This document shows positions 7,005 through 34,813 of a DNA stretch of 64,000 nt, one piece after another. Positions within the stretch are counted from its first letter, which is position 1. Each line of letters opens with the position of its first letter. Below the pieces are notes generated by a model. It was not told the origin of the DNA and made no database searches. It saw only the letters and a list, made by a program, of their open reading frames with translations. The DNA is from Blastococcus aurantiacus (GTDB lineage Bacteria > Actinomycetota > Actinomycetes > Mycobacteriales > Geodermatophilaceae): NCBI RefSeq assembly GCF_900102425.1, contig NZ_FNBT01000003.1, forward strand, positions 186,001 through 250,000, in the 5' to 3' direction. Position numbers and translations under genes: made by a program.

Positions 7005-7065
7005 AAGAGGACCCCCCTGCCCCCCGACACCCGCAGGCTCGCGCCGGGACCCTGCAGGGGGGCCG
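7005..7065 (+). repeat. palindromic intergenic element, copy A
   Basis: This is one of six related elements in the window. In element orientation it reads GAGGACC, variable arm CCCCTGC, a core with GGCTCGCGC, then GGGACCCTG, matching arm GCAGGGG, GGCC. It starts at the base after the divIVA-like stop codon and reads in the same direction. Arms differ from the other copies but stay complementary. Confidence 0.85.
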
Positions 7066-7084
7066 CAGGACGCTCGCTCCCGTA

Positions 7085-8356
7085 GTGGTCGCCCTGCTCT
7101 GCTGCCTGCTCTCGATCGTCGGCGGAGCAACCTCCGCGCACGCCGACGAGGAGCCCGGCCGGCTCCGCATCGCCCACCTCTCCTCCGACTCACCGGCCAT
7201 CGACGTCGCACTGACGCCGGCACCGTCGGGTGGTCCCACCGTCGACGCGGGCACGGACGTCGCGCGGGCACTCGGCTACGGCGACGTGGGCGGGTACCGC
7301 GACCTGGCCCCGGGCAGCTACGCGGTCAGCGTGCGGGCGGCGGGCGCTCCGCCGACCACACCGCCGGCCCTCTCGCTCCGCCTCGAGGTCCCTTCCGGCA
7401 GCGTCCGCACGCTCGCGCTCTCCGGCGCATTCGCCGACCTCGCCCTTCTCCCTCTCGCCGACGACCTGACCGCCCCGGCCGACGGGACGGCCCGCGTGCG
7501 GGTGCTCGCCGCGGCCGCCGGGGCACCGACGGTGGACGTCTCCGTCGAGGGCGGACCCGCCGTCGCCGTGGGTCTGCCCTTCGCCGCCGCGTCGGCCGCC
7601 AGACCTGTCCCTGCCGGACCGGCCCGACTCCGCCTGGACGCGGGCGGCCGCACGACCACCGTGCCGGTGGATCTCGTCGCCGGGACGGTGGTGAGCCTGC
7701 TCGTGCTCGACGCCCCTGACGGCGGGCTGACCGCGCGGGCGGTCGTCGACGCTGCCGTCCCTGCCGTGGTGCCCGTCGGTGGCGTCGCGGCGGGTGGTCG
7801 GGTCGCGGAACGGTTCGCTACCCCCGGGTTGCTGGACGACCTCCGGCCACTCCGGGCGCGGTTCCCCCTGCTGGCTGCGGCCCTCTCGGCCGCCGGCGGT
7901 GCACGCACCGGTGATCTGGCGCCGGTGCGCGTCCGGGCACCCGCCGCCGGCATCGACGCCACCCTGGCCGGCTCGGGCCTCGACGCCGTCGGCGGCCTCG
8001 CGGTGCCGGCGGATCCCTCGGTGGCCGGGTGGTACGTCGGCGGGCCGCGGCCCGGGGACCCGGGACCGGCCGTGCTCGCCGGGCACGTCGACTGGGCCGG
8101 CCGCCCCGCGGTGTTCCAGGGGTTGCACCGGCTCGTACCCGGCGACGAGGTGGTCGTCGACCGTGCCGACGGCAGCGCCGTCCGGTTCGCCGTCGAGCGG
8201 GTGGTGCAGGTCGGCAAGGGCGTCTTCCCGACCCGGGACGTCTACGGACCCGTGCCCGGCGCCGAGCTCCGGCTGATCACCTGCGGTGGGGCCTTCGACC
8301 GGGCCACGGGCAGCTACGCCGACAACGTCGTGGTGTTCGCCCGGCGCATCGGTTAA
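7085..8356 (+). CDS. DUF4397 / class F sortase fusion, secreted
   Basis: This 423-residue exported protein starts with a signal peptide (hydrophobic stretch ending near AHA at residue 20). About residues 25-230 form a DUF4397-like beta-rich region (RIAHLSSDSPAIDV, DLAPGSYAVSVRAAG). The last about 140 residues are a class F sortase with the catalytic His in LAGHVDW, the nucleophilic Cys in LITCGG and a downstream Arg. Class F sortases are transpeptidases found in high-G+C Gram-positives; the substrate here is unknown and no LPXTG-type partner gene is in view. The GTG at 7085 is the first usable start in the frame. Its TAA overlaps the opposite gene's stop in a shared TTAA. The fusion suggests the DUF4397 part positions or presents the sortase at the wall. 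Confidence 0.8.
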   Translation: MVALLCCLLSIVGGATSAHADEEPGRLRIAHLSSDSPAIDVALTPAPSGGPTVDAGTDVARALGYGDVGGYRDLAPGSYAVSVRAAGAPPTTPPALSLRLEVPSGSVRTLALSGAFADLALLPLADDLTAPADGTARVRVLAAAAGAPTVDVSVEGGPAVAVGLPFAAASAARPVPAGPARLRLDAGGRTTTVPVDLVAGTVVSLLVLDAPDGGLTARAVVDAAVPAVVPVGGVAAGGRVAERFATPGLLDDLRPLRARFPLLAAALSAAGGARTGDLAPVRVRAPAAGIDATLAGSGLDAVGGLAVPADPSVAGWYVGGPRPGDPGPAVLAGHVDWAGRPAVFQGLHRLVPGDEVVVDRADGSAVRFAVERVVQVGKGVFPTRDVYGPVPGAELRLITCGGAFDRATGSYADNVVVFARRIG

Positions 8357-8658
8357 CGGCGCCGGTCGCGGGCCCGCCAGCAGGTCGTGTGCCAGTGCCG
8401 TCGCCAGTCGGCGGCCGAGTCGGTGTCCCACGGCTCGAGGTCGGAGTCCCGGGCGTACGCCGGCCAGGTGACCAGGTGCGGCGTCCCGGGGCGGATCTCC
8501 TGATCGCATCCGGGGCAGCGGTAGGTCTTGCCCGTGCCCGCCCCGGTGACCGTGCGGACCACCCAGTCGCCGTCGCCGGCCTCCTCGACCTGCTCAGCGC
8601 GACGGCCCGGCTCCCGATCGGCTGATCGGGGGCCGGGCCGTGGGCGCCGGCGGGGCAC
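8353..8658 (-). CDS. small conserved actinobacterial zinc-finger-like protein
   Basis: This gene encodes 101 residues, with an Arg/Pro-rich N-terminal third and then a compact conserved part: YRCPGCDQEIRPGTPHLVTWPA followed by RRHWHTTCW. The CPGC pair plus the HWH-x-x-C motif form a plausible single zinc site. I recognise the pattern from small actinobacterial proteins often labelled ATP/GTP-binding, but no nucleotide-binding motif is visible, so that label is not used. It begins 3 nt after the stop of the upstream dehydrogenase gene on the same strand, so it is probably in its operon, and its stop shares the TTAA with the sortase gene. Confidence 0.7.
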   Translation of the reverse strand: MPRRRPRPGPRSADREPGRRAEQVEEAGDGDWVVRTVTGAGTGKTYRCPGCDQEIRPGTPHLVTWPAYARDSDLEPWDTDSAADWRRHWHTTCWRARDRRR

Positions 8659-8661
8659 CTG

Positions 8662-10419
8662 TCAGCGGCGGCTGTAGTCGTGGAACCCGCGACCGGTCTT
8701 GCGGCCGAGGTACCCGGCGGTGACCACGTGCTCCAGGAGCGGCGCCGGGGCGAGCGCCGGGTCGCGGAACTCGGCGTGCAGCTCCTGCTCGATGGCCAGC
8801 GAGACGTCGTTGCCGACGACGTCCAGCAGCTCGAACGGGCCCATCGGGTAGCCCAGGCCCGCCTTCACGGCCGTGTCGATGTCGCCCGCCGGCGCGTAGT
8901 GCGCCGCCAGCATCGACACGGCGTCGTTGAGGTAGGGGAAGAGCAGCGCGTTGACGATGAAGCCGGCCCGGTCGCTGCAGGAGACCGCGGTCTTCTTGAT
9001 CTTCGCCGTGACGGCGTGCACCGTGGCGGCCACGTCGGGAGCGGTGGAGACGGTGGAGACCACCTCGACGAGCTTCATGACCGTCGCGGGGTTGAAGAAG
9101 TGCATGCCCACCACGTCGGCCGGCCGGCCGCTGGCCTGCGCGCACTTGATGACCGGCAGGCTCGAGGTCGTGGTGGCGAGCACCGCACCCGGCTTGGCGA
9201 TCCGGCCGAGGTCGGCGAAGAGCGCCTCCTTGACCGGCAGCGACTCGATCACGGCCTCGACGACCAGGTCGACGTCGCTCAGCGCCTCGACGGAGCTGGC
9301 GCCGGTGACCCGGCCGAGGACCTCGTCGCGGACGGACTGCTCGAGCCGGCCGCGCTCCACCTGCTTGTCCAGCGACTTCGCCAGGGCCTTCTCGACGCCG
9401 GCGACCTTCTCGTCCGAGCGGGCGATGAAGGTGACGTCGTAGCCGGCCTTGGCGACGACCTCGATGATCCCGGTGGCCATCGTGCCCGACCCGACCACGC
9501 CGACGCTCTGCACCGGGCGGGCGCCCTCGGCGGCACCACCGGGGGTCGGGGTGGCGGCGTCGGCGACGACCTCGGCCGAACCGGCCTCGGCGTACGTGTA
9601 GAAGCCGCGGCCGCTCTTGCGGCCCAGCAGACCGGCGGTCCGCATCTGCTTGAGGACGGGGCTGGGCGCGTGCAGCCGCTTGCCCGAGACCGCGTGCAGC
9701 GAGTCGAGGACGTCGTAGGCGGTGTCGACACCGATGAGGTCCAGCACCTGCAGCGGGCCCATGGGGAGGCCGCAGCCGAACCGCATGGCGGCGTCGATGT
9801 CCTCACGGCTGGCGTAGCCGTTCTCGAACATCGAGACCGCGTGGTTGAGGTAGCCGAAGAGCAGGGCGTCGGTGATGAAGCCGGGCTCGTCGCCCACCGT
9901 CACCGCGACCTTGCCCACGCGCTCGACCAGGGCCACCGCGTCCTCGACCACCGACGGGTCGGTGACGGCCGTGCGGGCGACCTGGACCAGCGTCGCCGTC
10001 GGCACGGCGTTGGCGAAGTGCAGACCGAGGACCTTGCTCGGCCGGCCGGTGCCCACAGCGAGCTCGGTGACCGAGAGGCTGGAGGTGTTCGTCGCCAGGA
10101 TGGCGTCCGGTCCGACGATCTTGTCGAGCTGGGCGAAGATCTCCGCCTTGAGCGCCAGGCGCTCGGGGACGGCCTCGATCACCAGCTCCGCGCCGGAGAG
10201 GTCCTCGAGCGACGTGCTGTAGCGGATGCGGCCCAGCGCGGCGTCGTCCGCCTCACCGGCGGCGACCGAGCGCTCGATGGCGGCGCGACCGCGGGCGGCC
10301 GCCTCGTCGTCGACCTCGACGGCCGTGACCGACAGGCCCGCCCGGGCGAATACCTCCGCGATGGCGGCACCAGCGGTGCCCAGCCCCACGATGCCGACCT
10401 CGTTCAATTCCCTGGCCAC
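8662..10419 (-). CDS. tandem 3-hydroxyacyl-CoA dehydrogenase (two complete copies in one chain)
   Basis: The 585-residue chain contains two full 3-hydroxyacyl-CoA dehydrogenases, about residues 5-285 and 305-583. Each has a Rossmann NAD domain and a helical C-terminal domain ending GLLGRKSGRGFYTY or GYLGRKTGRGFHDY. These enzymes reduce acetoacetyl-CoA to 3-hydroxybutyryl-CoA or oxidise 3-hydroxyacyl-CoA. The first half has the glycine loop GLGTAG and an atypical LHFANAVP at the active-site His; the second has GSGTMA and the canonical MHFFNPA. The two halves have therefore diverged in cofactor loop and active-site surround and may differ in substrate. The start GTG at 10419 follows a GGAGGGA site. 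In this neighbourhood it is the natural step before enoyl-CoA hydratase and ccr. Confidence 0.9.
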   Translation of the reverse strand: MARELNEVGIVGLGTAGAAIAEVFARAGLSVTAVEVDDEAAARGRAAIERSVAAGEADDAALGRIRYSTSLEDLSGAELVIEAVPERLALKAEIFAQLDKIVGPDAILATNTSSLSVTELAVGTGRPSKVLGLHFANAVPTATLVQVARTAVTDPSVVEDAVALVERVGKVAVTVGDEPGFITDALLFGYLNHAVSMFENGYASREDIDAAMRFGCGLPMGPLQVLDLIGVDTAYDVLDSLHAVSGKRLHAPSPVLKQMRTAGLLGRKSGRGFYTYAEAGSAEVVADAATPTPGGAAEGARPVQSVGVVGSGTMATGIIEVVAKAGYDVTFIARSDEKVAGVEKALAKSLDKQVERGRLEQSVRDEVLGRVTGASSVEALSDVDLVVEAVIESLPVKEALFADLGRIAKPGAVLATTTSSLPVIKCAQASGRPADVVGMHFFNPATVMKLVEVVSTVSTAPDVAATVHAVTAKIKKTAVSCSDRAGFIVNALLFPYLNDAVSMLAAHYAPAGDIDTAVKAGLGYPMGPFELLDVVGNDVSLAIEQELHAEFRDPALAPAPLLEHVVTAGYLGRKTGRGFHDYSRR

Positions 10420-10482
10420 GCTGCCATCCCTCCACCGTCGGTGATCGCGGGCAGTCTCTCATTACGGTGACCCACGCCTCCC

Positions 10483-10542
10483 CGGCCCCTCTGCAGGGGC
10501 CCGCCGCGAGCTCGCGAGTGGCGGGGGCAGAGGGGTCCTTCC
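10483..10542 (-). repeat. palindromic intergenic element, copy B
   Basis: In element orientation (minus strand) it reads GGAAGGACC, arm CCTCTGC, the core CACTCGCGAGCTCG, GCGGGCCCCTG, matching arm GCAGAGG, GGCC. It begins one base after the nucS stop codon and reads in the same direction as nucS. Confidence 0.85.
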
Positions 10543-10543
10543 G

Positions 10544-11215
10544 CTAGAAGAGGCGCTGGGACGGGTCGTCGGTGCCCTTGAGGACGGCGTAGTCGACGGT
10601 GACGCAGTCGATGCCCCGGTCGGCGGCCAGCACCCGCGCCTGCGGCTTGATCTCCTGCGCGGCGAACACGCCCTTCACCGGAGCCAGCAGCGGGTCGCGG
10701 TTGAGCAGCTCGAGATACCGGGTGAGCTGCTCGACGCCGTCGATCTCACCGCGCCGCTTGATCTCCACGGCGACGGTCGTACCGGTCGCGTCGCGGCAGA
10801 GCAGGTCGACGGGGCCGATCGCGGTGGGGTACTCGCGGCGCACCAACGACCACCCCGCGCCGAAGGTCTCGACGTGCAGGGCCAGCAGGCGCTGCAGCTC
10901 GGCCTCGACGCCGTCCTTCTGCAGGCCCGGGTCCACGCCGAGTTCGTGGGAGTGGTCGTGCTCGACGGCCTCGATGGTGATGACCAGCTGCTCGCCGGCC
11001 TTGTTCGTGACCGTCCAGGTGCCCGAGCCGTCCACGAGCTCGTCCTTCAGCGTGCAGGGCGGCGTCATCCAGTTCAGCGGCTTGTAGGCGCGGTCGTCGG
11101 CGTGGATGGACACCGAGCCGTCGGCCTTGACCAGCAGCAGCCGGGTCGCCATCGGCAGGTGGGCGGTGAGCCGCCCGATGTAATCGACGGAGCAACGGGC
11201 GATGACCAGGCGCAC
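10544..11215 (-). CDS. nucS: mismatch-specific endonuclease NucS/EndoMS
   Basis: NucS cuts both strands at mismatches and provides mismatch repair in Actinobacteria that lack MutS/MutL. The 223-residue product carries the N-terminal DNA-binding part ([31 protein letters not shown]) and a RecB-like nuclease core with PVDLLC and [17 protein letters not shown], containing the catalytic Asp, Glu and Lys. It ends in SQRLF, a terminal motif of the kind that docks on the beta clamp. I chose the GTG at 11215, not one at 11251, for two reasons. It matches the family N-terminus, and a TAGCGT box lies 8 nt upstream of it, inside the longer reading. A palindromic element follows the stop. Confidence 0.93.
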
Positions 11216-11223
11216 GAGCGTCG

Positions 11224-11229
11224 ACGCTA
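11224..11229 (-). promoter_or_regulatory. -10 box for leaderless nucS
   Basis: The minus-strand hexamer TAGCGT lies 8 nt before the nucS GTG. The short spacing would place the transcript start at or next to the start codon. Confidence 0.5.
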
Positions 11230-11272
11230 CCGGGACCGGGAACGCGCTCACCCACCCCGTCGTCTGGAGGTC

Positions 11273-12169
11273 ATGACGATCGCGCGTGCGTGCCGGGTGG
11301 CGACGACGCTGCTCCTCGTCCTGGGCGTGGCCGCCTGCGCGCAGCGCACGGGCACCGCTGCACCGCCACCGGACGCCGACGCGGACCCGTCGCCGAGGGC
11401 CGAGCTGCCCTCCGACGCCGCGGCGCTGGTACTCCGTGTCGAGCAGACGGGCGGCTTCACGACGCCGGAGGGCCAGGCTGGCCTCCTACCGCTCATCAGC
11501 GCCTACGCCGACGGCCGGGTGCTCCTCCAGGGGCCGGTGGCGGCCATCTATCCCGGGTTCGCCTGGCCCAACCTCCAGGTGCTCGACGTCGGCCCCGACG
11601 GTGTGCGAGCACTCGTGGAGCGGGCGCTCGCCGCCGGCGTCGCCGACCCCGACGACCTGGGCACCCCGCCGCTGGCCGACGTGCCCACCACCCGCTTCAC
11701 GGTGGCGACCGTGGACGCCACGTACGTACGCGAGGCGTACGGCCTGACCGAGACGATCCGCATGCGCGACGGCGGGCTCACCGGGGAGCAGCTGGCCGCC
11801 CGTCGGGAACTCCAGCAGCTGGTCGAGGAGCTCGTCGGCCTCGCCTCGGCGGAGCGTCCGGAGGACGTGCCCGGGTCGTGGACCCCGGACGCGGTCGCAG
11901 TGATCGCCCGCCCGTGGACCGACCGCGAGGACGGTCTCACCCAGCAGCCGCTGCCGTGGCCGGGCCCGACTCTCTCCGGCGACCAGCTGGGGTGGATCCC
12001 CGGCAACACCTGCGTCGTCGCCACCGGCGACCAGGTGCCCGCCCTGATGACGGCGGCCGCGCGGGCGAACGTCCAGACACCGTGGACCACCCCGGACGGC
12101 AACCGGTGGTCGGTGACCTTCCGGCCACTGCTGCCGGACGAGTCGAGCTGCGCCGACCTGCTGCGCTGA
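11273..12169 (+). CDS. putative lipoprotein, unknown function
   Basis: This 298-residue protein has a classical lipoprotein signal: basic start, hydrophobic core and lipobox LGVAAC with Cys at 22. A Pro/Asp-rich linker follows. The mature domain (about residues 45-298) contains Val-rich beta segments, two Cys residues in the last 55 positions (NTCVVATG and SSCADLL) that could form a disulphide, and no catalytic motif that I recognise. The ATG at 11273 follows CTGGAGG at good spacing. It is divergent from nucS with a 57-bp gap and ends at a bidirectional hairpin. Its likely location is the outer face of the membrane. I assign no function. Confidence 0.75.
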
Positions 12170-12175
12170 GACGCC

Positions 12176-12212
12176 GACGGGCCCGGCCCCTCGAGGAGGG
12201 ACCGGGCCCGTC
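12176..12212. terminator. bidirectional hairpin between convergent genes
   Basis: Arms GACGGGCCCGG (12176-12186) and CCGGGCCCGTC (12202-12212) form an 11-bp perfect stem. It lies 6 nt after the lipoprotein stop and 12 nt beyond the stop of the opposing symporter gene, so it can serve both. Confidence 0.7.
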
Positions 12213-12224
12213 GAGGCCACCGGA

Positions 12225-13583: not shown

Positions 13584-13776
13584 GGGAGGACTACCGATCT
13601 ACGGGAGGAGGGGGGACGACGGGAGCGGTGAGCGTCGACAGCTCGCGGTCGTCGTCCGGCCGTAGTCGAGCGCGCGCCTGCGCGTCAGGCCCCACAGGTT
13701 CTGCACGGGAGGATCAAGGCCCGATCAGCCAGGGGCCATCCCGCCTGTGAGTCGATTCACCTGGGAGGCTGGTGCG

Positions 13777-14529
13777 ATGACCGACGCCGAGCCGGTGACC
13801 CCGACCGCACCGCGCCCGGCCGGGAGGGTGCTGTTCACGCAGGGCTGGCGGGACGTCGCCTTCCTGCACTGGGCCGTCGATCGCGCCCGGGTGGCCCCGC
13901 TCCTCCCGCCGGGCACCCGGCCCGACGAGCACGACGGCGCCACCTACGTGGGCCTCGTCCCCTTCCGGATGCGCCGGATCGGGCTGCTCGGCACCCCCGC
14001 GCTGCCGTGGGTCGGCTCGTTCCTGGAGACCAACGTGCGCCTGTACTCGGTGGACGAGCAGGGGCGCCGCGGGGTCGTCTTCGCCTCGCTGGACGCCGAG
14101 CGGCTGCTCCCCGTGCTCGCCGCCCGCTGGGTCGCCGGGCTGCCGTACCTCTTCGCGCGGATGCGCTGCACGCGTGTCGGCGACGTCGTCACCTACACGT
14201 CCAGCCGGCGGTGGCCGGAACCGCGGGGCACCCGCGGCGACGTCGTCCTGCGGGTCGGCGACCGCCTGGCCGACCCGCCGCCGCTGGCCCGCTTCCTCAC
14301 CGGCCGCTGGGGTCTGCACCAGACCGATCGGCGGGGCCGCACCGCCTACTGGCCGAACGAGCACCCGGAGTGGCCGCTGCACGCCGCCTCGGTCCTCGAG
14401 CTCGACGAGGGCCTGACCACCGCCGCCGGGCTGGCCGTGGACGGACACCCGGACAGCGTGCTGTTCTCCCCGGGCGTCGACGTCCGCTTCGGACCGCGCG
14501 TGCTGGCCCCCGTGCAGGGTCCCGCGTGA
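13777..14529 (+). CDS. DUF2071 (YqjF-like) protein
   Basis: The 250-residue product belongs to the DUF2071/YqjF group: it opens with FTQGWRDVAFLHWAVD, continues with LLPPGTRPDEHDGATYVGLVPFRMR, and has FLETNVRLYSVDEQGRRGVVFASLD. Function of the family is not established; the fold is an acetoacetate-decarboxylase-like beta barrel in known relatives. The ATG at 13777 follows a GGGAGG site. An unusual point is that the last nine codons, encoding LAPVQGPA plus stop, lie within palindromic element copy C, so the C-terminus is encoded by the repeat. Confidence 0.78.
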   Translation: MTDAEPVTPTAPRPAGRVLFTQGWRDVAFLHWAVDRARVAPLLPPGTRPDEHDGATYVGLVPFRMRRIGLLGTPALPWVGSFLETNVRLYSVDEQGRRGVVFASLDAERLLPVLAARWVAGLPYLFARMRCTRVGDVVTYTSSRRWPEPRGTRGDVVLRVGDRLADPPPLARFLTGRWGLHQTDRRGRTAYWPNEHPEWPLHAASVLELDEGLTTAAGLAVDGHPDSVLFSPGVDVRFGPRVLAPVQGPA

Positions 14530-14563
14530 GCGTGCGAGCGGCGGGGGGCACGGGGGTCCGTTT
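14503..14563 (-). repeat. palindromic intergenic element, copy C (overlaps coding end)
   Basis: In element orientation (minus strand) it reads ACGGACC, arm CCCGTGC, the core CGCTCGCACGCTCACG, CGGGACCCTG, matching arm GCACGGG, GGCC. It starts one base after the enoyl-CoA hydratase stop, and its far arm supplies the final codons of the convergent DUF2071 gene. Confidence 0.85.
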
Positions 14564-15334
14564 TCAGTCGGTCCAGACCGGCGGGCGCTTCTCCAGGAAC
14601 GCGGACATCCCCTCGCGGGCACCGTCGAGCTGGCTGGCCGCGGCCATGACCTCGATCGCCGTGGCGTAGGCGTCCCCCTGCGGACGGTCCAGCTGGGCGT
14701 ACATCGTCTGCTTGCCCCAGGCCTTGCTGGCGCGGGAGCCGCGGGTCGCGCGCGAGAGAAGATCGTGGACGGCGGCGTCGAGCTCGGCATCGGGGACCAC
14801 CCGGTTCACCAGGCCCCAGTCCAGGGCGGTCCGGGCGTCTATGACGTCACCGGTCAGGGCCAGCTCCATCGCCCGCTTCCGGCCGACGTTGCGGGCGATC
14901 GCGACCATCGGGGTGTGGCAGAACCAGCCGCCCTTGCCGCCGGGGGCGGCGAAGCCGGCCGACTCGGCCGCGACCGCCAGGTCGCAGGACGCGACGAGCT
15001 GGCAGCCGGCGGCCGTGGCGAGCGCGTGCACGCGGGCGACGACCACCTGCGGCACGTCCTGGATCGCCGACATCAGGTCGGTGCACAGCCGGAGCAGGCT
15101 GCGGACCTCGGTCAGCGGCTTCCCGGCGACGTCGGCGAAGTCGTGCCCGGCGCTGAACACCGGCCCCTCGGCGGCGAGGACGATGCCGGTGGCGTCGGTG
15201 CCTCCGGCCTCCGTGACCGCCGCGAGCAGCTGGGTCAGGTGCTCGCGGGAGAGGGCGTTCCGGCGCGCCGCCCGCACCATCGTGATGCGGACGACGTCGC
15301 CGTCGCGCTCTACCCGGGGTGCGCCGTCAGCCAT
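14564..15334 (-). CDS. enoyl-CoA hydratase/isomerase family protein (ECHDC3-like)
   Basis: The product is a 256-residue crotonase-fold protein with the oxyanion-hole segments SAGHDFADV and HALATAAGCQLVASCD. The region around the second catalytic residue reads GGWFCHTPMVAIARNVG, which resembles the ECHDC3 subgroup more than classical crotonase; the usual catalytic Glu is not obvious there, so hydratase activity is uncertain. In context it could hydrate or form crotonyl-CoA between the double dehydrogenase and ccr. It starts 18 nt after the mutase stop on the same strand, so it may be read from the mutase promoter. A TAGCGT box 6 nt before the ATG suggests its own leaderless promoter as well. 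Confidence 0.82.
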   Translation of the reverse strand: MADGAPRVERDGDVVRITMVRAARRNALSREHLTQLLAAVTEAGGTDATGIVLAAEGPVFSAGHDFADVAGKPLTEVRSLLRLCTDLMSAIQDVPQVVVARVHALATAAGCQLVASCDLAVAAESAGFAAPGGKGGWFCHTPMVAIARNVGRKRAMELALTGDVIDARTALDWGLVNRVVPDAELDAAVHDLLSRATRGSRASKAWGKQTMYAQLDRPQGDAYATAIEVMAAASQLDGAREGMSAFLEKRPPVWTD

Positions 15335-15340
15335 CCTCCG

Positions 15341-15346
15341 ACGCTA
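15341..15346 (-). promoter_or_regulatory. -10 box for leaderless enoyl-CoA hydratase transcript
   Basis: Minus-strand TAGCGT lies 6 nt before the ATG. The intervening CGGAGG could also serve as a ribosome site on the transcript coming from the mutase gene. Confidence 0.45.
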
Positions 15347-15352
15347 GACCGA

Positions 15353-17383: not shown

Positions 17384-17391
17384 ACCGGCGG

Positions 17392-17397
17392 AGTGTA
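17392..17397 (-). promoter_or_regulatory. -10 box for the mutase gene
   Basis: Minus-strand TACACT ends 8 nt before the mutase ATG, consistent with a leaderless or near-leaderless transcript. Confidence 0.4.
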
Positions 17398-17462
17398 GGG
17401 CGGTCGGGGGGCGCAGGCAGCCCCGCCCGGGCAACGATGACCGGTGGCACACTCGAACGGCG

Positions 17463-17521
17463 TAAGGACCCCGTCCTCCTCACCCCTCGCTCGCTCGGGG
17501 CGAGCCTCGGGACGGAGCCAG
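17463..17521 (+). repeat. palindromic intergenic element, copy D (divergent copy)
   Basis: It reads TAAGGACC, arm CCGTCC, the core CCTCGCTCGCTCGGGGCGAGCC, arm GGACGG, AGCC. This is the most degenerate copy and the only one not placed behind a recognisable gene: it lies upstream of the DUF2007 gene, ending 12 nt before its start. Confidence 0.7.
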
Positions 17522-17533
17522 AAAGGGATCGTC

Positions 17534-17851: not shown

Positions 17852-17859
17852 GCCGGGTC

Positions 17860-19140: not shown

Positions 19141-19146
19141 CCGACC

Positions 19147-20630: not shown

Positions 20631-20689
20631 GACACTCCTCGGGATCTCCGGACGGGCCTTCACTCTAGCCGCGAGGTGAGGAGCTGGAA

Positions 20690-20749
20690 CGGCCACCCTT
20701 CAGGGGCCCGCGCCGAGCGTGCGAGGCGTGGGGGAAGGGTGGTCCTTCT
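20690..20749 (-). repeat. palindromic intergenic element, copy E
   Basis: In element orientation (minus strand) it reads AGAAGGACC, arm ACCCTTC, the core GCCTCGCACGCTCGGCG, CGGGCCCCTG, matching arm GAAGGGT, GGCC, and extends as GTTCCAGC. It starts one base after the stop of the 80-residue gene, between atpD and atpC. The arm sequence differs most from the others yet stays complementary. Confidence 0.85.
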
Positions 20750-20750
20750 G

Positions 20751-20993
20751 TCAGGCAGCGCGGCGGTACAGCAGCGTGAAGCGGCCCACGCGGACCCAGG
20801 GGTGGCGCACGGTGGACGCGGGCGCCCACTCCTCGATCCGGTAGCGGGCCAGCTCGACCGGCTCCTCGGGCGCGTAGGGCGCCCAGGCCCAGCCGGGCTC
20901 CCCCGCTCGCTCCTGCGCTGCGCTGAACAGATCCACGTCGAACCCCTGCGCCGGCGCCCGCCACTCGGGCGCTCCACCGCTGATGGTCGGCAC
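20751..20993 (-). CDS. small unknown protein between atpD and atpC
   Basis: This gene encodes 80 residues with many aromatic residues (GWAWAPYAPEEPVELARYRIEEWAP, HPWVRVGRFTLLYRRAA). It has no membrane segment and no motif I know. The start is a GTG at 20993 without a strong ribosome site. Evidence that it is real: a protein-like composition with W, Y, F and balanced charge, and an element of the palindromic family placed directly behind its stop, as behind other genes here. Against it: no recognised family and a weak start. It interrupts the otherwise conserved atpD-atpC junction. Confidence 0.45.
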   Translation of the reverse strand: MPTISGGAPEWRAPAQGFDVDLFSAAQERAGEPGWAWAPYAPEEPVELARYRIEEWAPASTVRHPWVRVGRFTLLYRRAA

Positions 20994-23586: not shown

Positions 23587-23589
23587 GGG

Positions 23590-25227: not shown

Positions 25228-25283
25228 GGCTCTGGTCCTCTTCCCTGCGGGGGTCGTGTCGTTGTGGGGTGCGGAGGGGGCGG

Positions 25284-26725: not shown

Positions 26726-26766
26726 GCTCTGCACGTCCCTAAGTCAGCTGGACAGGACCGGCGGGC

Positions 26767-27018
<252 letters not shown>

Positions 27019-27058
27019 TCACCCGGGGTCGTCCCGGGTGGCTGGCGGGGTGGAGCGG

Positions 27059-27889: not shown

Positions 27890-28224
27890 CGTCGTCCCTT
27901 CTGCGTCTTGCGGTACTCCGGTGGCCGGCTCCGCTGCCCGCCCCGGGTCGTGCTGGTGGGCCGACCCCCCGCAGGCGGTTCGACGGCCCCGTACTTGACG
28001 ACCACCAGGTAGATGGCCACACCCAGACCGAGCAGCACGCCCACCAGGGTGAAGACGCGGGTCTCCAGCCAGCGGTCGAGCAACCAGCCGACCCCGCCCC
28101 ACACGAGCATCCCCGAGAGCATGGTCCCGGTGATGCCCCAGCCCATGTCCGCCCCGGAGGGATGACGTTCGGCATCTGCGGTGCGCGGTCGAGTTTCCCT
28201 AGGTTCAGGGCTGTTCTCGGCCAT
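27886..28224 (-). CDS. AtpZ/AtpI-like two-helix membrane protein
   Basis: The product has 112 residues: a charged N-terminus (MAENSPEPRETRPR), two membrane helices (MLSGMLVWGGVGWLLDRWL and VFTLVGVLLGLGVAIYLVVVKYGA) and a basic tail. The W-L-L-D-x-W between the helices is typical of AtpZ/AtpI-type proteins that accompany ATP synthase operons. Their suggested roles are c-ring assembly and magnesium or ion handling; neither can be confirmed here. It overlaps atpB by 4 nt and follows the atpI-like gene by 16 nt. Confidence 0.8.
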   Translation of the reverse strand: MAENSPEPRETRPRTADAERHPSGADMGWGITGTMLSGMLVWGGVGWLLDRWLETRVFTLVGVLLGLGVAIYLVVVKYGAVEPPAGGRPTSTTRGGQRSRPPEYRKTQKGRR

Positions 28225-28240
28225 CACTCGGGACACTATC

Positions 28241-28741
28241 TCAGCCGTTGGACGCCGGGCGGGCCGGGTCTGGGGCACCGGCGTCAGGACCACCCGCACG
28301 GGTGGCCGCGGGAGCAGCGGGCGGCGACACGTAGAAGACCTGCCGGGTCCAGACCCAGCGCATCTGGACACCGCTCCACAGCAGGGCGCCGGCGATGACG
28401 GTCCAGGCGAGGACGAGCCGGTCGAGCCAGCCGTCCTCCGGCAGCGAGCCCAGCAGCGCGAAGAGCACCAGCAGCTTGACCAGGAAGGTCCCGAGCGCGG
28501 CCGGGAGGGCCAGCGAGTCCTCGATGCCGCCGGCCCAGGCGATGACCAGGCCGGACACGACGAAGAAGGCGACGACGGTGGCGGCGCCGACGAGAACGGC
28601 CACCGCGCTCCCCCAGCCGCCGAGGATCCCGGCGACGGGCGCGGCGACGGCGGTGACCGCGGCGGAGACCAGGGCCCCCACGCGGAGGAAGGCGAGGTCC
28701 CAGGGCGCGCTGGACGCGGGCGTTCTCGGTGCGGCGGTCAT
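28241..28741 (-). CDS. atpI: ATP synthase protein I-like membrane protein
   Basis: The 166-residue product has four hydrophobic segments and a Pro/Ala-rich C-terminal tail. Its position (between the rfe-type transferase and the AtpZ-like gene) and four-helix layout match the AtpI-like protein of actinobacterial atp operons (Rv1303 position). AtpI assists c-ring assembly in known systems. The ATG at 28741 overlaps the transferase stop by 4 nt (ATGA), so its translation is coupled to that gene. Confidence 0.78.
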   Translation of the reverse strand: MTAAPRTPASSAPWDLAFLRVGALVSAAVTAVAAPVAGILGGWGSAVAVLVGAATVVAFFVVSGLVIAWAGGIEDSLALPAALGTFLVKLLVLFALLGSLPEDGWLDRLVLAWTVIAGALLWSGVQMRWVWTRQVFYVSPPAAPAATRAGGPDAGAPDPARPASNG

Positions 28742-29988
28742 CTCAGGGCCTTCCGGGACTCGGCGGTGCGGGCGGCGGCACGGACGGCGCGCGCCTCGCT
28801 GCCACGGCTGCGCACCGCGCGCGCGGTGGGGTGGTCGGCGCGGCTGCGTTCCCGCTGCGCCGCGAGCTCGGCCGCCCGCGCCTCGCGGGCGGCGCGGCGG
28901 GCCCGCGGGCTGAGGACGACGACCGTGCCCACGACGAGGAGGACGGCGATGGCCACCAGCAGTTCCGCCGTCCCGCCGGTGATCGACAGGGCGACCGCAC
29001 CGAAGGAGAGCAGCGCCGCCCAGAAGTACATGACCAGCACCGCGCGCCGGTGCGAGTGGCCGATGGAGAGCAGCCGGTGGTGCAGGTGCATCTTGTCCGG
29101 CGCGAACGGCGAGCGACCCTGGCGGGTGCGCCGGACCACCGCCATGACGAGGTCGATGAAGGGGATGAAGAGCACCGCCACCGGCACCAGCAGCGGCAGG
29201 GTGAGCGGCAGCAGGGTGGCGGCCGAGTCGAAGGACTGCGGGTCCACTCCCCCGGTCGCCGTGACCGCCGCGGCCGAGAGCATCAGGCCGACCAGCATCG
29301 AGCCCGAGTCGCCCATGAAGATGCGCGCCGGGCTGAAGTTGTGCGGGAGGAAGCCCAGGCAGGCACCGGCCAGCACGGCCGTGATCAGCGCCGGCGCGCT
29401 CGCCACGTCGTCGTAGCCGACCAGGCCCAGGTGGTAGCTGTACGCGAAGAAGGCCAGGGCCGCGATCGCCGAGACGCCGGCCGCCAGCCCGTCCAGTCCG
29501 TCGATGAAGTTCAGGGCGTTGACCACCAGGACGGTGAGCAGGATGGTCAGCGGCAGGCCGACGTCGGGGCCCAGCGAGATGGTGCCGATGTCGGCCACCG
29601 GCAGGAACAGGATGGACAGCTGCACGCCCAGCAGCCCCATCAGGCCGGCGGCCGCGATCTGCCCGGTGAGCTTCGTCAGGGCGTCCAGGCCCCACTTGTC
29701 GTCCAGCACGCCCAGGGCGCAGATGAGCCCGCCGCCGATGAGGACCGCGTAGGTCTGGGTGTCCTCGAAGGTGCGCTGCAGCGCCGGCAGCCGGCTGGCG
29801 ACGAACACCGCCGTGACCACACCGAGGTACATGGCCACGCCTCCCCCGCGGGGCGTGGGGATGGAGTGCACGTCCCGCTCCCGGGGAGCGGCCATCATGC
29901 GGAAGCGGACGGCGAGCATCCGCACCACCGGGGTGGTCAGGAAGGTGACCAGCGCGGCGGTGAGCAGGACGACGGCGTACTCGCGCAT
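28738..29988 (-). CDS. wecA: undecaprenyl/decaprenyl-phosphate GlcNAc-1-phosphate transferase (WecA/Rfe type)
   Basis: This 416-residue polytopic membrane enzyme of the MraY/WecA superfamily transfers a GlcNAc-1-phosphate to polyprenyl phosphate, starting wall polymer synthesis (linkage unit of arabinogalactan or other glycopolymers). Diagnostic motifs are the Asp pair LGVLDDKWGLD, the NFIDGLDGLAAG loop and FMGDSGSM. A His-containing loop DKMHLHHRLLSIGHSH follows. About eleven membrane helices are visible, with a basic C-terminal tail (RRAAREARAAELAAQRERSR). The position between tsaC and atpI agrees with rfe in mycobacteria. Confidence 0.93.
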   Translation of the reverse strand: MREYAVVLLTAALVTFLTTPVVRMLAVRFRMMAAPRERDVHSIPTPRGGGVAMYLGVVTAVFVASRLPALQRTFEDTQTYAVLIGGGLICALGVLDDKWGLDALTKLTGQIAAAGLMGLLGVQLSILFLPVADIGTISLGPDVGLPLTILLTVLVVNALNFIDGLDGLAAGVSAIAALAFFAYSYHLGLVGYDDVASAPALITAVLAGACLGFLPHNFSPARIFMGDSGSMLVGLMLSAAAVTATGGVDPQSFDSAATLLPLTLPLLVPVAVLFIPFIDLVMAVVRRTRQGRSPFAPDKMHLHHRLLSIGHSHRRAVLVMYFWAALLSFGAVALSITGGTAELLVAIAVLLVVGTVVVLSPRARRAAREARAAELAAQRERSRADHPTARAVRSRGSEARAVRAAARTAESRKALR

Positions 29989-30162
29989 CGGCTCAGCCGG
30001 CGCGGTTCGGCTCGGGACGGGTCCCGGGAGCAGGCGTGCTCATCCAGCCGCCTCCCGGACGTCGTCGGGCCGCGACACCTGTGGGCGCCGCGGCGGTCGT
30101 CCCACGGTAGCGCTCGGACCTGGCAGCGCTCCGCGTCGCGCCGCCGCGTGCCGTCCCCGGCG

Positions 30163-30822
30163 TCAGTCGGTCAGTTCCGGGACGGCGTCGCGCAGCCGGT
30201 CGACCGGGACGGCGCCGACCCGCAGGACGCGCGGCACGGGGCTGGTGCAGTCGACGATCGTGCTGGCCGCGGAGTCGGTGCGCGGCCCGCCGTCGAGCAC
30301 CACGGCGGCGTGCTCGCCCAGCTGGGCGGCCGCCTCCTGCGCGGTCGTGGCGGCCGGCCGGCCCGAGCGGTTGGCGCTGGACACCGCCAGCGGGCCGGTG
30401 CGCCGCAGCAGGTCCCGGGTCAGGTCGTCGTCGGGGAGCCGGACGGCGACCGTCCCCTCGGCGTCCCCGAGGTCCCAGGCCAGTGACGGCGCGTGCTCGA
30501 GCACCAGGGTCAGGCCGCCGGGCCAGAAGGCCTGCGCCAGCGCGGTCGCGGCGGGCGGCGTCTGCAGCACCAGGCCGGCCAGCGTCGAGGCCTCACCGAT
30601 CAGCACGGGGACCGGCATGCCACGGCCACGGTTCTTGGCGGCGAGCAGCGCGGTGACCGCGTCGGGGTTGAACGCGTCCGCGCCCACCCCGTAGACGGTG
30701 TCGGTGGGCAGCAGGACCAGCCCGCCGGCGGCGATCGCGGCGGCCGCGGCGTCCAGGCCGGCGGTGCGTGCCTCGGGGTCGGTGCAGTCGTAGGTCTCGG
30801 CCACGGGGACGAAGTCTGTCAC
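30163..30822 (-). CDS. tsaC: threonylcarbamoyl-AMP synthase (YrdC/TsaC type)
   Basis: The enzyme makes threonylcarbamoyl-adenylate from Thr, bicarbonate and ATP, the precursor of the t6A modification in ANN-decoding tRNAs. The 219-residue product is a single YrdC domain with GGLVLLPTDTVYGVGADA, AKNRGRGMPVPVLIG, the WPGGLTLVL motif and VSSANRSG. It lacks the C-terminal Sua5 domain. The GTG at 30822 starts just before the domain; an upstream reading passes through DNA antisense to the kinase tail and is rejected. It lies 28 nt after the kinase gene, in the place held by Rv1301 in mycobacteria. Confidence 0.92.
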   Translation of the reverse strand: MTDFVPVAETYDCTDPEARTAGLDAAAAAIAAGGLVLLPTDTVYGVGADAFNPDAVTALLAAKNRGRGMPVPVLIGEASTLAGLVLQTPPAATALAQAFWPGGLTLVLEHAPSLAWDLGDAEGTVAVRLPDDDLTRDLLRRTGPLAVSSANRSGRPAATTAQEAAAQLGEHAAVVLDGGPRTDSAASTIVDCTSPVPRVLRVGAVPVDRLRDAVPELTD

Positions 30823-30850
30823 CGGCGCGGAGTGCGCGTGGCGGCCGGGC

Positions 30851-32374
30851 TCACTCGTCGCCACCGCCGTCGTCGTCGCCGCCGCCGTCGTCGCCGCCGT
30901 CCTCGTCACCACCACGGCCGCCGTTGCCGCCGTTTCCGTTGCCGTTGCCGTTGCCCTGGTTGCCCTCGTTCCCGTTGCCACCGCCTTCGTTCCCGTTGCC
31001 GCCACTGACGTTGCCGTTGCCGTTGCCTTCGTTCCCGTTGCCGCCGTCGTCGACCGGGGCGGGAGGCGGGGCCGGCTGGGGCACCGGTACGGCGTAGCTC
31101 AGCCGGACCAGCGCGTCGGGCGGCAGGGTGCCGGTCGGGTCGACGGCGGTCACCAGGCCGGCGGCCACCTCGCCGGTCTCCACGGCGACCAGTTCGACCC
31201 GGAGCCCGCGGCCCACCAGCACGCCCTCGACCTCCTGCACCGGCCGGCCGAGCAGGTCCTCGGCGACGACGTCCACGCCGGCGGGCGTGGTCGCGGTCGC
31301 CTCCTGCTCCGTCGTCCGGCCGGTCGGTGGCGTCGGGTCGTCCCCGCGCGTGAGCGCGAGGACACCCGCGCCCGCGGCGAGGAGCAGCACGGCCAGCAGC
31401 GCGACGAGCGGCCACCTCCGCCGACGGGGACGGGCGGCTGCCCCGCCCGGCACGGCCGGCAGGACGGCGGTCGGTGCCGGCGCAGGCGACGGCGCTGCGG
31501 GGAGGACGGCGGTCGGTGGCAGGGCGACCGCGGCCGGCGCCCCGGCGCGGACGCCGTCGACCGCGTCGCGCAGGGCGCCACCGTCCGGGTAGCGGGCGGC
31601 GGGGTCCTTCGCCATCGCCCGCTCCACCAGTGCGCGGACGGCGGGCGGGACGTCGGCCGGCAGCGGGTCGGGCTGGTCGCGGATCTGCATGACCGCGATC
31701 TGGACGGCGCTCTCCCCCTCGAACGCCCGCCGTCCGGCCAGGCACTCGTAGCCGACGGTGCCGAGGGCGTAGACGTCGCTGGCCGGGCTCGCGGGCTGCC
31801 CGGACGCCTGCTCGGGGGAGAGGTAGTGCGCGGTGCCGAGCACCTGGCCCGTCGCCGTGATCGCGACGCTGGCCGCCGAGCGGGCGATGCCGAAGTCGGT
31901 GAGCTTCACCCGGCCGTCGTGCCGCACCAGCAGGTTGGCCGGCTTGATGTCGCGGTGCACGACGCCTGCCTCGTGGGCGGCACCGAGGCCGTCCGCCGCC
32001 TGCCGGAGGACGTCCAGGGTGCGCGGCAGGTCCAGCCGCCCTTCGCGGCGGAGCACGTCGGCCAGCGACTCGCCCTCCACCAGTTCCATCACCAGGTAGG
32101 CCACCGGTGGGGTGCCCGGCGCGCCCTGCGCCTCGCCGTAGTCGAACACCGCGGCGATGTGCGGGTGGACGAGGGTGGCGGCGTGCTGGGCCTCCGCGCG
32201 GAAGCGGGCCCGGAAGCCGGGATCGGCGGCGAACTGGTCGCGGAGCACCTTGACCGCCACGGGGCGGTCGAGCAGCGTGTCGCGGCCGCGCCAGACCTGG
32301 CCCATGCCGCCGCCGGCGATGAGGGCCCCCAGTCGGTAGCGGCCGGCGAGGAGGGTGCCCTGCGGTTCCGTCAC
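30851..32374 (-). CDS. PASTA-type Ser/Thr protein kinase with Gly/Asn-rich tail
   Basis: This 507-residue membrane kinase has a kinase domain (about residues 10-275) with the glycine loop AGGGMGQVW, VAVKVL, catalytic HRDIKPANLL, DFG, and the GTAHYLSPEQA activation segment. A Pro/Ala linker and basic patch (RPRRRRW) lead to one membrane helix (PLVALLAVLLLAAGAGVLAL) and one extracellular PASTA-like domain ending VRLSYAV. The last about 65 residues are a Gly/Asn/Glu repeat and an acidic end. PASTA kinases sense cell-wall fragments and regulate growth and wall synthesis. The GTG at 32374 has a strong AGGAGG. It lies 11 nt after prmC and 28 nt before tsaC, inside a block that lacks a kinase in mycobacteria. 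Confidence 0.9.
   Translation of the reverse strand: MTEPQGTLLAGRYRLGALIAGGGMGQVWRGRDTLLDRPVAVKVLRDQFAADPGFRARFRAEAQHAATLVHPHIAAVFDYGEAQGAPGTPPVAYLVMELVEGESLADVLRREGRLDLPRTLDVLRQAADGLGAAHEAGVVHRDIKPANLLVRHDGRVKLTDFGIARSAASVAITATGQVLGTAHYLSPEQASGQPASPASDVYALGTVGYECLAGRRAFEGESAVQIAVMQIRDQPDPLPADVPPAVRALVERAMAKDPAARYPDGGALRDAVDGVRAGAPAAVALPPTAVLPAAPSPAPAPTAVLPAVPGGAAARPRRRRWPLVALLAVLLLAAGAGVLALTRGDDPTPPTGRTTEQEATATTPAGVDVVAEDLLGRPVQEVEGVLVGRGLRVELVAVETGEVAAGLVTAVDPTGTLPPDALVRLSYAVPVPQPAPPPAPVDDGGNGNEGNGNGNVSGGNGNEGGGNGNEGNQGNGNGNGNGGNGGRGGDEDGGDDGGGDDDGGGDE
30905..31050 (-). repeat. low-complexity GGN/AAC repeat in the kinase tail
   Basis: A run of imperfect 6-base units encodes alternating Gly-Asn with interspersed Glu. 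Such slippage-prone repeats vary in length between strains. The following bases encode a Gly/Asp/Glu tail. Confidence 0.75.
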
Positions 32375-32385
32375 GGGTCCTCCTG

Positions 32386-33240
32386 TCAGCCGCGGCGGGC
32401 GGTCGTGAACCGGGGGCGGCCGGCGAGGTCGGGATGGTCCTCCACGGCGGTGAAGCCGCCGTGCGAGCGGACCACGGCCGGCAGCGCCGTCCCCTGCTGG
32501 TCGGCGTGCTCGATGCCCAGCCAGCCTCCCTGACGCAGCAGACGGGCGGCGACCCCGAGCATGCCGCGCACCACGTCGAGGCCGTCGGGACCGCCCCAGA
32601 GCGCCAGCGGCGGATCGTGGTCGGCCACCTCGCGCGGGACCCGGGCGCCGTCGGGCACGTAGGGCGGGTTCGAGACGACCAGGTCGACCCGCCCGTCCAG
32701 CTCGGTGAGGAGCGCGGGGTCGGTCATGTCGCCGGCGACGACGCCCATGGGGGTGTCCCGGGCACCGGCCCGCGCCAGCGCGTTGTGGCGGGTCCAGGCG
32801 AGCGCTCCGGGATCCCGCTCGACGGCGGTGACCCGCGCACCGGGGTGCTCGTGCGCGATGGACAGCGCGATGGCGCCGGACCCGCTGCCCAGGTCCACCA
32901 CGATCGGCCCGTCGAGCCCGGCCAGCCGGGTCAGGGCCCACTCCACGAGCAGCTCGGTCTCCGGGCGCGGGACGAACACCCCGGGACCCACCGCCAGTTC
33001 GAGCAGCCGGAACGGGGCCCGGCCGGTGAGGTGCTGCAGGGGCACCCGGTCGGCCCGCTGCTCGAGCAACCCGGCGAACCGGGCGGCGTCCTCCGCGGCG
33101 ACGGCGTCGAGCGTCAGGAGCCCCGTGCGGGCGCAGCCGACGACATGGGCCAGCAGCAGCTCGGCGTCCACCCGGGGTGACTCGACGCCGGCCTCGGCGA
33201 GGCGCCGTGCCGCGTCGGCCAGGAGCGTGCGCGGGTTCAG
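32386..33240 (-). CDS. prmC: peptide chain release factor N5-glutamine methyltransferase (probable CTG start)
   Basis: PrmC methylates the Gln of the GGQ motif in release factors, matching the adjacent prfA. The product has the N-terminal helical domain and a class I methyltransferase fold with [16 protein letters not shown], and the catalytic NPPY in [13 protein letters not shown] at 33171 gives 261 residues but cuts off the first conserved helix. The frame remains open upstream with good similarity ([23 protein letters not shown]), back to a stop. The only candidate in that stretch is a CTG at 33240, which overlaps the prfA stop (CTGA) as the GTGA and ATGA junctions do elsewhere here. I therefore annotate 284 residues from CTG, with the start uncertain. 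Confidence 0.85.
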
Positions 33241-34307
33241 GAGCCGGCCGCCAGCAGTTCAGCGGTGTGCGCGCTGCTCAGCGCGTCGATCACCGCGTCC
33301 AGGTCGCCGTCGAGTACCTGGTCGAGGTCGTGCGACTTGTAGCCGACCCGGTGGTCGGAGATCCGGTTCTCCGGGAAGTTGTACGTGCGCACCCGCTCGC
33401 TGCGGTCCACGGTGCGGACCTGGCTGCGCCGCTGGTCGCTCGCGGTGGCGGCGGCCTCCTCGCGGGCCGCGGCCAGCAGCCGGGAGCGCAGCACCCGCAG
33501 TGCCGACTCGCGGTTCTGCAGCTGGCTCTTCTCGTTCTGCGAGCTCACCACGATGCCGCTGGGCAGGTGGGTGATCCGCACGGCCGAGTCGGTGGTGTTG
33601 ACGCTCTGCCCACCGGGGCCCGACGAGCGGAAGACGTCGATGCGCAGGTCGTTCGCGTCGACGGTGACGTCGACCTCCTCGGCCTCCGGCAGCACCAGCA
33701 CGCCGGCGGCCGAGGTGTGGATGCGGCCCTGGCTCTCGGTGGCCGGCACCCGCTGGACCCGGTGCACGCCGCCCTCGAACTTCAGCCGCGACCAGATCCC
33801 CTCGTCGGTGCGCGACTTGATGGCCACCGCGACGTCCTTGTAACCACCCAGCTCGGCGTCCTGGGCGTCGAGCACCTCGGTGGCCCAGCCACGGCGCTCG
33901 GCATAGCGCAGGTACATGCGCAGCAGGTCCCCGGCGAACAGCGCCGACTCCGCGCCGCCCTCCCCCGCCTTGATCTCGAGGATGACGTCCTTGTCGTCGT
34001 CGGGGTCCTTGGGCAGCAGCTCCTCGTTCAGCCGGCCGGTCAGCTCCTCGATCCGGCGCTCGAGAGCGGTCGCCTCGGCGGCGAAGGAGGCGTCCTCGGC
34101 AGCGAGCTCCCGGGCGGTGCCCAGGTCGCCGCGGGCCTCCTCGAGGGCGCGGGCGGTCTCCACGAGCGGAGCCAGCCGGGCGTAGCGGCGGCTCAGCCGG
34201 CGGGCGCGGGCCTGGTCGCCGTGCACCGCCGGGTCGGCGAGCTCCTGCTCCAGCGACGCGTGCTCGGCGAGCAGGCTCGCCAGCCGGTCGGGTGCGGGGC
34301 TGCTCAC
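33237..34307 (-). CDS. prfA: peptide chain release factor 1
   Basis: RF1 reads UAA/UAG and triggers peptide release. The 356-residue product has the coiled domain 1, the peptidyl-hydrolase motif GPGGQSVN in [17 protein letters not shown], and [20 protein letters not shown]. The GTG at 34307 lies 7-8 nt behind GAGGAG; a longer reading from 34361 passes through that ribosome site and is rejected. The codon-reading tripeptide region is within the normal length. It follows rpmE after a strong hairpin and overlaps prmC, whose product modifies it. Confidence 0.95.
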
Positions 34308-34344
34308 GGGGTCACTCCTCGGTGCGGACGGGGGCGGACACGAC

Positions 34345-34384
34345 GACGGCGCCCGCCCCACCGCGAGGTGGGACGGGCGCCGTC
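34345..34384 (-). terminator. strong hairpin after rpmE
   Basis: The stem GACGGCGCCCGCCCCACC (34345-34362) pairs with GGTGGGACGGGCGCCGTC (34367-34384) around GCGA, with one mismatch region. It lies 7 nt past the rpmE stop and before prfA, so prfA probably has its own promoter or is reached by read-through. Confidence 0.7.
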
Positions 34385-34391
34385 GGAGGTG

Positions 34392-34625
34392 CTACTTGTC
34401 GGCCGGGGCCTCGGTGGCGTTGCGCTTGCCGAACCGCTTCTCGAAGCGGGCGACGCGGCCACCGGTGTCGAGGATGCGCTGCTTGCCGGTGTAGAAGGGG
34501 TGGCAGGCGGAGCAGGTCTCGACGGTGAGCGTGCCGGTCGGCGAGGTGCTGCGGGTGGTGAAGGTGTTGCCGCAGCCGCAGGTCACCGTGGTGACGTTGT
34601 AGGCCGGGTGGATGTCGGGCTTCAT
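34392..34625 (-). CDS. rpmE: 50S ribosomal protein L31 (zinc-binding form)
   Basis: This is a 77-residue L31 of the large subunit with the zinc-ligand pattern C-G-C-G near residue 16-19 and C-S-A-C-H near 38, the C+ form that is replaced by a zinc-free paralogue under zinc starvation in many bacteria. The ATG at 34625 has AGAGGCAG upstream. A Lys/Arg tail follows. It sits between rho and prfA as in mycobacteria. Confidence 0.96.
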
Positions 34626-34752
34626 GGCTGCTGCCTCTTCTACGAAGTCTGGGTCGTTCAGTGCTGTGAACGCCGGGGACCGGACGGCTATTTCCGGCGA
34701 GCCGGCGGGGCTCGGTCGTCCAGTCTCCCAGATCGGCCGGTAGGTGCTGGAA

Positions 34753-34813
34753 CGGCCCCCGTCCAGGGTCCCGCCCTGAGCGTGCGAAGGGTGGGGTGGA
34801 CGGGGGTCCTTCC
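34753..34813 (-). repeat. palindromic intergenic element, copy F
   Basis: In element orientation (minus strand) it reads GGAAGGACC, arm CCCGTCC, the core ACCCTTCGCACGCTCAGG, GCGGGACCCTG, matching arm GGACGGG, GGCC, and extends as GTTCCAGC, an extension shared with copy E. It starts at the base after the rho stop. Confidence 0.85.

Follow-up and report, generated by a model that had tools for sequence, protein, structure and literature searches.

Elements in the window

The window is the whole stretch of DNA analysed here, 64,000 nt of Blastococcus aurantiacus (GCF_900102425.1, contig NZ_FNBT01000003.1, positions 186,001-250,000 of the forward strand). It carries six copies, A to F, of a palindromic element of about 55-65 bp. 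Each is described on its T strand, the strand opposite to the one on which the original prediction had read it (minus for A and D; plus for B, C, E and F), and scores are those of a covariance model built from the six copies.

Element A, 7001..7065 (-), with its core at 7009-7064 (80.7 bits, E 1.9e-18), sits between a DivIVA-domain gene (+), which ends at 7004 with its stop 4 nt off, and a DUF4397/sortase gene (+), as assigned by Pfam. Element B, 10483..10546 (+; core 10484-10538; 77.2 bits), has the stop of nucS (-) 5 nt away. Element C, 14504..14567 (+; core 14505-14559; 74.1 bits), lies in a convergent gene pair, where the stop of an enoyl-CoA hydratase-family gene (-) is 4 nt away and the called 3′ end of a DUF2071 gene (+) is overlapped. 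Element D, 17458..17520 (-; core 17466-17519; 67.9 bits), lies between diverging genes, with no stop codon adjoining and the called start of a methylmalonyl-CoA mutase gene 127 nt downstream; it is the most deviant of the six, without CGGGACCCTG and one outer-stem pair shorter in the hand-set register. Element E, 20675..20753 (+), has its core at 20691-20745 after a 5′ extension at 20675-20690 (76.8 bits), and the stop of a small open frame (-) upstream of atpC is 5 nt away. Element F, 34738..34817 (+), likewise has an extension, at 34738-34753, before its core at 34754-34809 (89.2 bits); the stop of rho (-) is 4 nt away and rpmE is on the far side.

The original prediction had placed all six within a few bases of these positions, with arms that pair as it described. 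The AAGGACC of its layout is not exact in A and C, and D departs most. When the window is scanned, the six copies have E-values of 1.3e-20 to 3.8e-15 under a model built from these same six, and the next match has 0.009. A short hairpin at 28279-28308 (-), CGGCCACCC and GGGTGGTCCT around 4 nt, has the foot of the family without the inner part (19.7 bits, a weak match to the model) and lies within a called gene, 28241-28741 (-); it is perhaps a miniature or decayed copy.

Structure and covariation of the hairpin

On the T strand the element folds roughly as C-GGCC[arm]-AGGGN-CCCGNNNN-GAGCNTGCGA-NNNNYGGG-GR-[arm']-GGTCC-TTC, giving an 11-bp outer stem, an internal loop of 5 x 1-2 nt and an inner stem of 8 bp capped by a near-fixed loop of 10 nt, GAGCNTGCGA. 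The layout first proposed was right in its arms and their pairing and wrong in its strand, since it is complete only on the opposite one; the inner stem, which also covaries, and the 10-nt loop had been missed. With the register of the six copies set by hand and N at gaps, all 112 of 112 cells of the two-stem structure are paired, compared with 45.9-62.4% in slid controls, and 0 of 500 shuffles reach 112/112. Two-sided changes occur at 9 of the 19 pairs, including 5 of the 8 in the inner stem.

The larger alignment was drawn from the 135 matches in the source genome at E≤1. From these, 110 loci were fetched (30 by search and 80 by place) and 100 were used, leaving out L015, L022 and L027, which are A, B and E, and L104-L110. 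Among 102 distinct copies, standard pairs fill 97.6% of 1885 pair cells, a figure favoured, like the other pairing figures from this alignment, by its having been fitted to the covariance model. There are 291 cells with two-sided changes versus 87.7 in shuffles, and covariation is 0.444, compared with 0.150 in shuffles and no more than 0.104 in slid controls. Counting the pairs that show any two-sided change is less distinctive (12 versus 10.2 in shuffles, 7 of 500 of which reach 12). Arms outside the window covary as well, in keeping with the selected pairing originally claimed.

The two strands are not equivalent. Predicted folds are stronger on the T strand for all six window copies, and the strand first read has A.C mismatches or a bulged A at positions that are G.U on the T strand. 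Two pairs are G.U in most copies, one in 95 of 101 and the other in 67 of 102. Apart from the former, the T strand has 115 G.U or U.G cells, 4 C.A and 0 A.C (p 2e-29). Mutation alone would give both kinds alike, so the ratio of 115 to 4 marks the T strand as the selected single strand.

This asymmetry bears on whether selection is needed to explain the compensation. Long near-perfect GC palindromes are prone to template-switching repair, and such hairpin-templated repair, copying one arm onto the other, could yield matched arms unaided. It would, however, erase mismatches, yet the two G.U pairs persist at 95/101 and 67/102, always on the same strand, and the 115:4 asymmetry speaks against repair as the sole cause. 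We consider this account very improbable.

Across the 102 distinct copies the loop and the internal loop are almost invariant, and the conserved blocks are AGGGNCCCG and GAGCNTGCGA. The foot, GGCC/GGTCC by inspection of these copies, is not that of an integron attC site, which has conserved AAC/GTT triplets there, and that identity was rejected. In the 107 copies with gene contexts the T-strand tail is pyrimidine-rich, UCCUUCUU-like. The extension that E and F had been seen to share recurs: GGAA(N) directly precedes GGCC in 18 of 107 copies, mostly with a longer GGTGACGTGCTGGAAC-like stretch. Allowing one mismatch, GTGACGTGCTGGAAC has 11 matches, all beside elements by position, and the idea that the extension leads to a larger autonomous copy was rejected on that ground.

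Family size and distribution

The covariance model finds at least 132 matches in the 4.16-Mb source genome at E≤1e-3 (135 at E≤1); as the scoring covered 150 of 6293 candidates, the true number may be higher. Among the relatives examined first, 33 of 36 genomes of the same family and 0 of 24 from other families of the order have matches at E≤1e-3. The genome-wide dispersed family suggested by the six copies is therefore real, with abundant copies well beyond the window. Element F is the top match among the candidates scored in the genome search; that the best-scoring copy lies between rpmE and rho, a transcription termination factor gene (window 34392-37093), is probably coincidence.

Of the 51 Geodermatophilaceae listed from a sample of 298 genomes across the order, 50 match at E≤1e-4 and the 51st has one match at 2.5e-4. 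Three genomes of other families match, with 1-3 copies each; the contigs concerned measure 4.5, 5.3, 21 and 89 kb, and one of 33 kb has a weak match (E 0.001). The stated contamination of the three assemblies is 2-4%, and we suspect that these contigs are mis-binned. The family is essentially confined to Geodermatophilaceae, where copies occur in Blastococcus, Geodermatophilus, Modestobacter, Klenkia and Trujillonella. Blastococcus sp. TF02-09 (L118) is the best match listed, with aroA at 95%, among records from which very near ones may be absent. Another record, titled 'UNVERIFIED_ORG: Bacillus sp. AZ43' (L128), has family copies and an aroA locus 89% identical to the Blastococcus source genome; it is a mislabelled Geodermatophilaceae genome.

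Copy number within the genus ranges widely, with 1, 3, 5, 12 and 37 copies per genome, 125 in another at E≤1e-4 and at least 132 in the source genome at E≤1e-3. These counts, in particular the genomes with 1-5 copies, are difficult for a reading in which the element is a double-stranded DNA site for a chromosomal protein, architectural or BIME-like, with copies kept for that role. The conserved blocks and the one-family distribution would suit such a site, whereas compensated arms and the asymmetry of G.U over A.C between strands would be unexpected in it; we regard it as scarcely credible.

With Rfam 15, the whole window has only a tRNA at the gathering cut-off and the element matches no family; at E≤5 the segment 6900-21000 has five weak matches, none on elements A-E. 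As to viral carriers, one exact pattern had 0 matches in viral_contigs, and the pattern AAGGACCN{4,12}CTCGCACGC, which was too strict, also had 0. A plasmid search with a 1.5-kb stretch around A returned 10 records; the matches of the five listed span 14-27% of the query and leave the element uncovered. No published description of this family was found in the open-access library searched.

Placement relative to genes

Genes were called with a purpose-made codon model around 107 copies in the source genome; for relatives, the best 150 of 167 matches were used for the counts of placement, G.U, nesting and atpD. On the T-strand 3′ side the gene is on the other strand in 93 of 107 copies. In 88 of 107 the stop codon of this gene lies 0-10 nt from GGTCC, confirming an expected enrichment at 3′ ends, and in 49 of these it is TGA at offset 4. 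Offsets are mostly 0-5, yet no copy has offset 3, where A would fall at +6. Among relatives the stop is at 0-5 nt in 87 of the best 150 copies. After GGTCC the T strand has T (96%), T (79%) and C or T (91%), with C at +6 in 82%, so that the 3′ junction is almost fixed (GGTCC-TTCNN-C); it usually adjoins a stop codon and in a few copies a -10 box. The 5′ junction is loose. Harmless insertion alone would not obviously keep copies so close to stop codons, a point against the mobile reading given below.

A small second class (6 of 107 copies in the source genome) has a start codon 10-30 nt away in the T direction. TANNNT stands 5-8 nt before the start in all six, compared with 208 of 1197 genes in the relatives' loci. 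In the relatives' second class it is present in 18 of 18 copies, all at one orthologous site, the aroA spacer. Element D belongs to neither class. Some copies lie between diverging leaderless promoters, where they serve no gene end.

Far from the junction, the gene on the other side of the 88 stop-adjoining copies is on the same strand as the near gene in 56 (tandem) and opposed to it in 32 (convergent). In 12 of the 32 convergent pairs at most 15 nt are left on the far side of the element.

Such positions invite the view that the elements are intrinsic, possibly bidirectional, terminators or other 3′-end RNA structures, kept by selection at each gene end, with the T-strand RNA ending transcripts that arrive from its 5′ side. 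As in intrinsic terminators, a GC-rich stem is followed on the T strand by a pyrimidine-rich tail; T-strand folds are strong, the G.U bias fits RNA, 88 of 107 copies are at gene 3′ ends, 32 of them convergent, and the 12 tightest pairs have little room for another terminator. Unlike that of a terminator, however, the element's strand is wrong for the adjacent gene, which reads the other strand, where pairing is poorer, and in 56 of 88 the far gene is on that other strand too. A near-fixed loop and an internal loop would be superfluous, copies occur between diverging leaderless promoters and inside one another, and at atpD the element coexists with a native terminator (see below). Termination of the adjacent gene was rejected as a general explanation on strand, the atpD motif and the diverging promoters, and we think it unlikely that the wider terminator view accounts for the family. 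Termination may still occur as a by-product, given the 12 convergent pairs, out of 32, whose far side leaves no more than 15 nt.

Empty and occupied sites

Orthologous sites differ in whether they hold a copy. The aroA spacer, empty in the window, holds an element in L118. The 3′ end of atpD, likewise empty in the window, has a copy in L118 (at 7942 of that locus), and the site of element D has no copy in L121, L123 or L124. Flanks are conserved at all three sites, on both sides in the case of the aroA spacer.

The end of atpD could be followed through many species. A scored copy is present at 21 of 63 ends, between the stop codon and a retained native terminator, in a count from which one locus with a run of N was skipped and in which some of the 42 ends scored as empty hold degraded copies by eye (for example L161, L173). 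In 39 of the 42 ends without a scored copy the terminator motif begins, at the median, 22 nt after the stop, versus 78.5 nt in 20 of the 21 occupied ones, a shift that indicates insertion of about one element length between stop and terminator. At atpD the element is thus not the terminator of the adjacent gene, and the original hint that transcripts of the neighbouring gene might end at the element fails there, the native motif being kept behind it in 20 of 21 occupied ends. The native terminator has a shared form, ACGGCCGGG...CCCGGCCGT, at most of the 63 species ends (L118-L197), and is quite unlike the element. Arms at this site vary among species, which suggests repeated insertion and is also compatible with change in place. 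Stops are TAA or TAG in 10 of 21 occupied ends and 7 of 42 others (p 0.015, relatedness ignored).

Change in place can be followed in the aroA spacer, where 19 orthologous copies from 19 species are still 92.8% paired: 27 compatible changes are two-sided and 26 one-sided, versus 25 broken cells. Selection in place is compatible with this level.

Some copies are nested within the apical part of another, in 6 of the best 150 of 167 matches in relatives by a strict arm test. Nesting occurs in both relative orientations and is three deep in L178. Units with only the inner hairpin stand in tandem with full copies (L177 9154-9245, L184 7623-7669, L156 8161-8202 and L160 8155-8199), as if built by slippage, and some copies are themselves arranged in tandem. 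Neither a very recent insertion within one species nor a definable target-site duplication was seen.

A probable mobile hairpin repeat

The presence and absence of copies at orthologous sites and their nesting revise the nature of the elements, which are probably mobile. We assign a probability of about 0.7 to their being copies of a hairpin repeat that moves non-autonomously, resembles REPs or MITEs and is specific to Geodermatophilaceae. The T-strand hairpin, as a single strand, would be recognised by a protein through its loop and internal loop, and insertion would occur in trans at short TCAG- or CTAG-like sites (CTGA or CTAG on the other strand). Insertions that break genes would be lost, leaving survivors right behind stop codons or upstream of -10 boxes. 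A settled copy may secondarily act as a terminator, most plausibly in the tight convergent pairs.

The mobilising enzyme was sought with Pfam models. Y1_Tnp (PF01797, the RAYT type) has no match in 22 genomes of the genus, the source genome included, and 5 of 14 control genomes were positive. A reverse-transcriptase route would fit the almost fixed 3′ and loose 5′ junctions; RVT_1 is present in 4 of the 22 genomes and absent from the source genome, and the route was set aside on the latter count. The IS91-type Y2 transposase model (PF04986) matched 0 of 36 genomes, a result that is uninformative as the controls also gave no match. For one complete genome, in which the GC skew is weak and the origin was taken to lie near the contig ends, 83 of 125 copies and 122 of 199 genes share an orientation relative to replication (p 0.41); no clear strand bias beyond gene orientation was found. 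The lack of Y1_Tnp matches and, in the source genome, of RVT_1 weighs against the mobile reading.

More specifically, and only tentatively, we propose a so far unrecognised transposition system. Its enzyme would differ from a canonical Y1/RAYT and, in this genome, from a reverse transcriptase; it would recognise the two-stem hairpin with its near-fixed loop as ssDNA or RNA and insert it at stop codons, upstream of -10 boxes and in the loops of earlier copies, to more than 100 copies per genome. An abundant repeat in GC-rich Actinobacteria, with no tag and no detected RAYT, varies from 1 to more than 130 copies within a genus, and this contrast makes the search for the enzyme directly testable. 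Placement at stop codons and nested copies form a natural insertion record, and throughout Geodermatophilaceae the elements may remodel the ends of transcripts as well as divergent promoters.

Comparison with known repeats

In the sections drawn on here, Di Nocera et al. 2013 (PMC3733652) describe GTAG and CGTC REPs as high-copy imperfect palindromes of 20-40 bp whose stems are compensated. Most are found between genes in unidirectional or convergent pairs, near the 3′ end of the gene upstream and variably distant from the next. Convergent REPs are mostly within 20 bp of both gene ends, and GTAG termini often supply a TAG stop (section 15 of the same paper). As far as those sections go, the Geodermatophilaceae element resembles them in copy number, compensated stems and position close behind ORF 3′ ends between tandem or convergent genes, and the termini of either can coincide with a stop codon. 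It shares with CGTC REPs, which that source portrays as without a dedicated or known transposase, that none was found. REPs are described mainly from proteobacteria in the parts of PMC3733652 and PMC6006769 cited, with the GTAG class tied to RAYT enzymes.

The element, by contrast, is about 55-65 bp long, has two stems and a near-fixed 10-nt loop, nests, and belongs to Actinobacteria. Neither a GTAG nor a CGTC tag appears at the hairpin foot in the positional base frequencies flanking 107 copies. As no tag and no RAYT were found, and as it is larger, two-stemmed and nesting, we do not file it as a GTAG or CGTC REP, and a RAYT-driven REP, with neither tag nor enzyme found, was rejected. By analogy it would work like a REP while being distinct in tag, RAYT, size, architecture and nesting.

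An IS200/IS605-type or TnpA-REP mechanism, as far as outlined in the cited part of Quentin et al. 2018 (PMC6006769), would fit a hairpin acting as a single strand with one almost fixed junction by a short target. The element differs in that Y1_Tnp was not found in 22 genomes of the genus and in that no clear replication bias beyond gene orientation was seen in the one genome analysed, with an assumed origin. MIRU, from the cited part of PMC12548453 and from general background, are like it short actinobacterial repeats thought to be mobile, found at gene boundaries with little harm to genes. According to that part of the paper, they insert at start codons and have an internal ORF that is coupled to the gene, whereas the Geodermatophilaceae element, a compact hairpin, comes after the stop codon.
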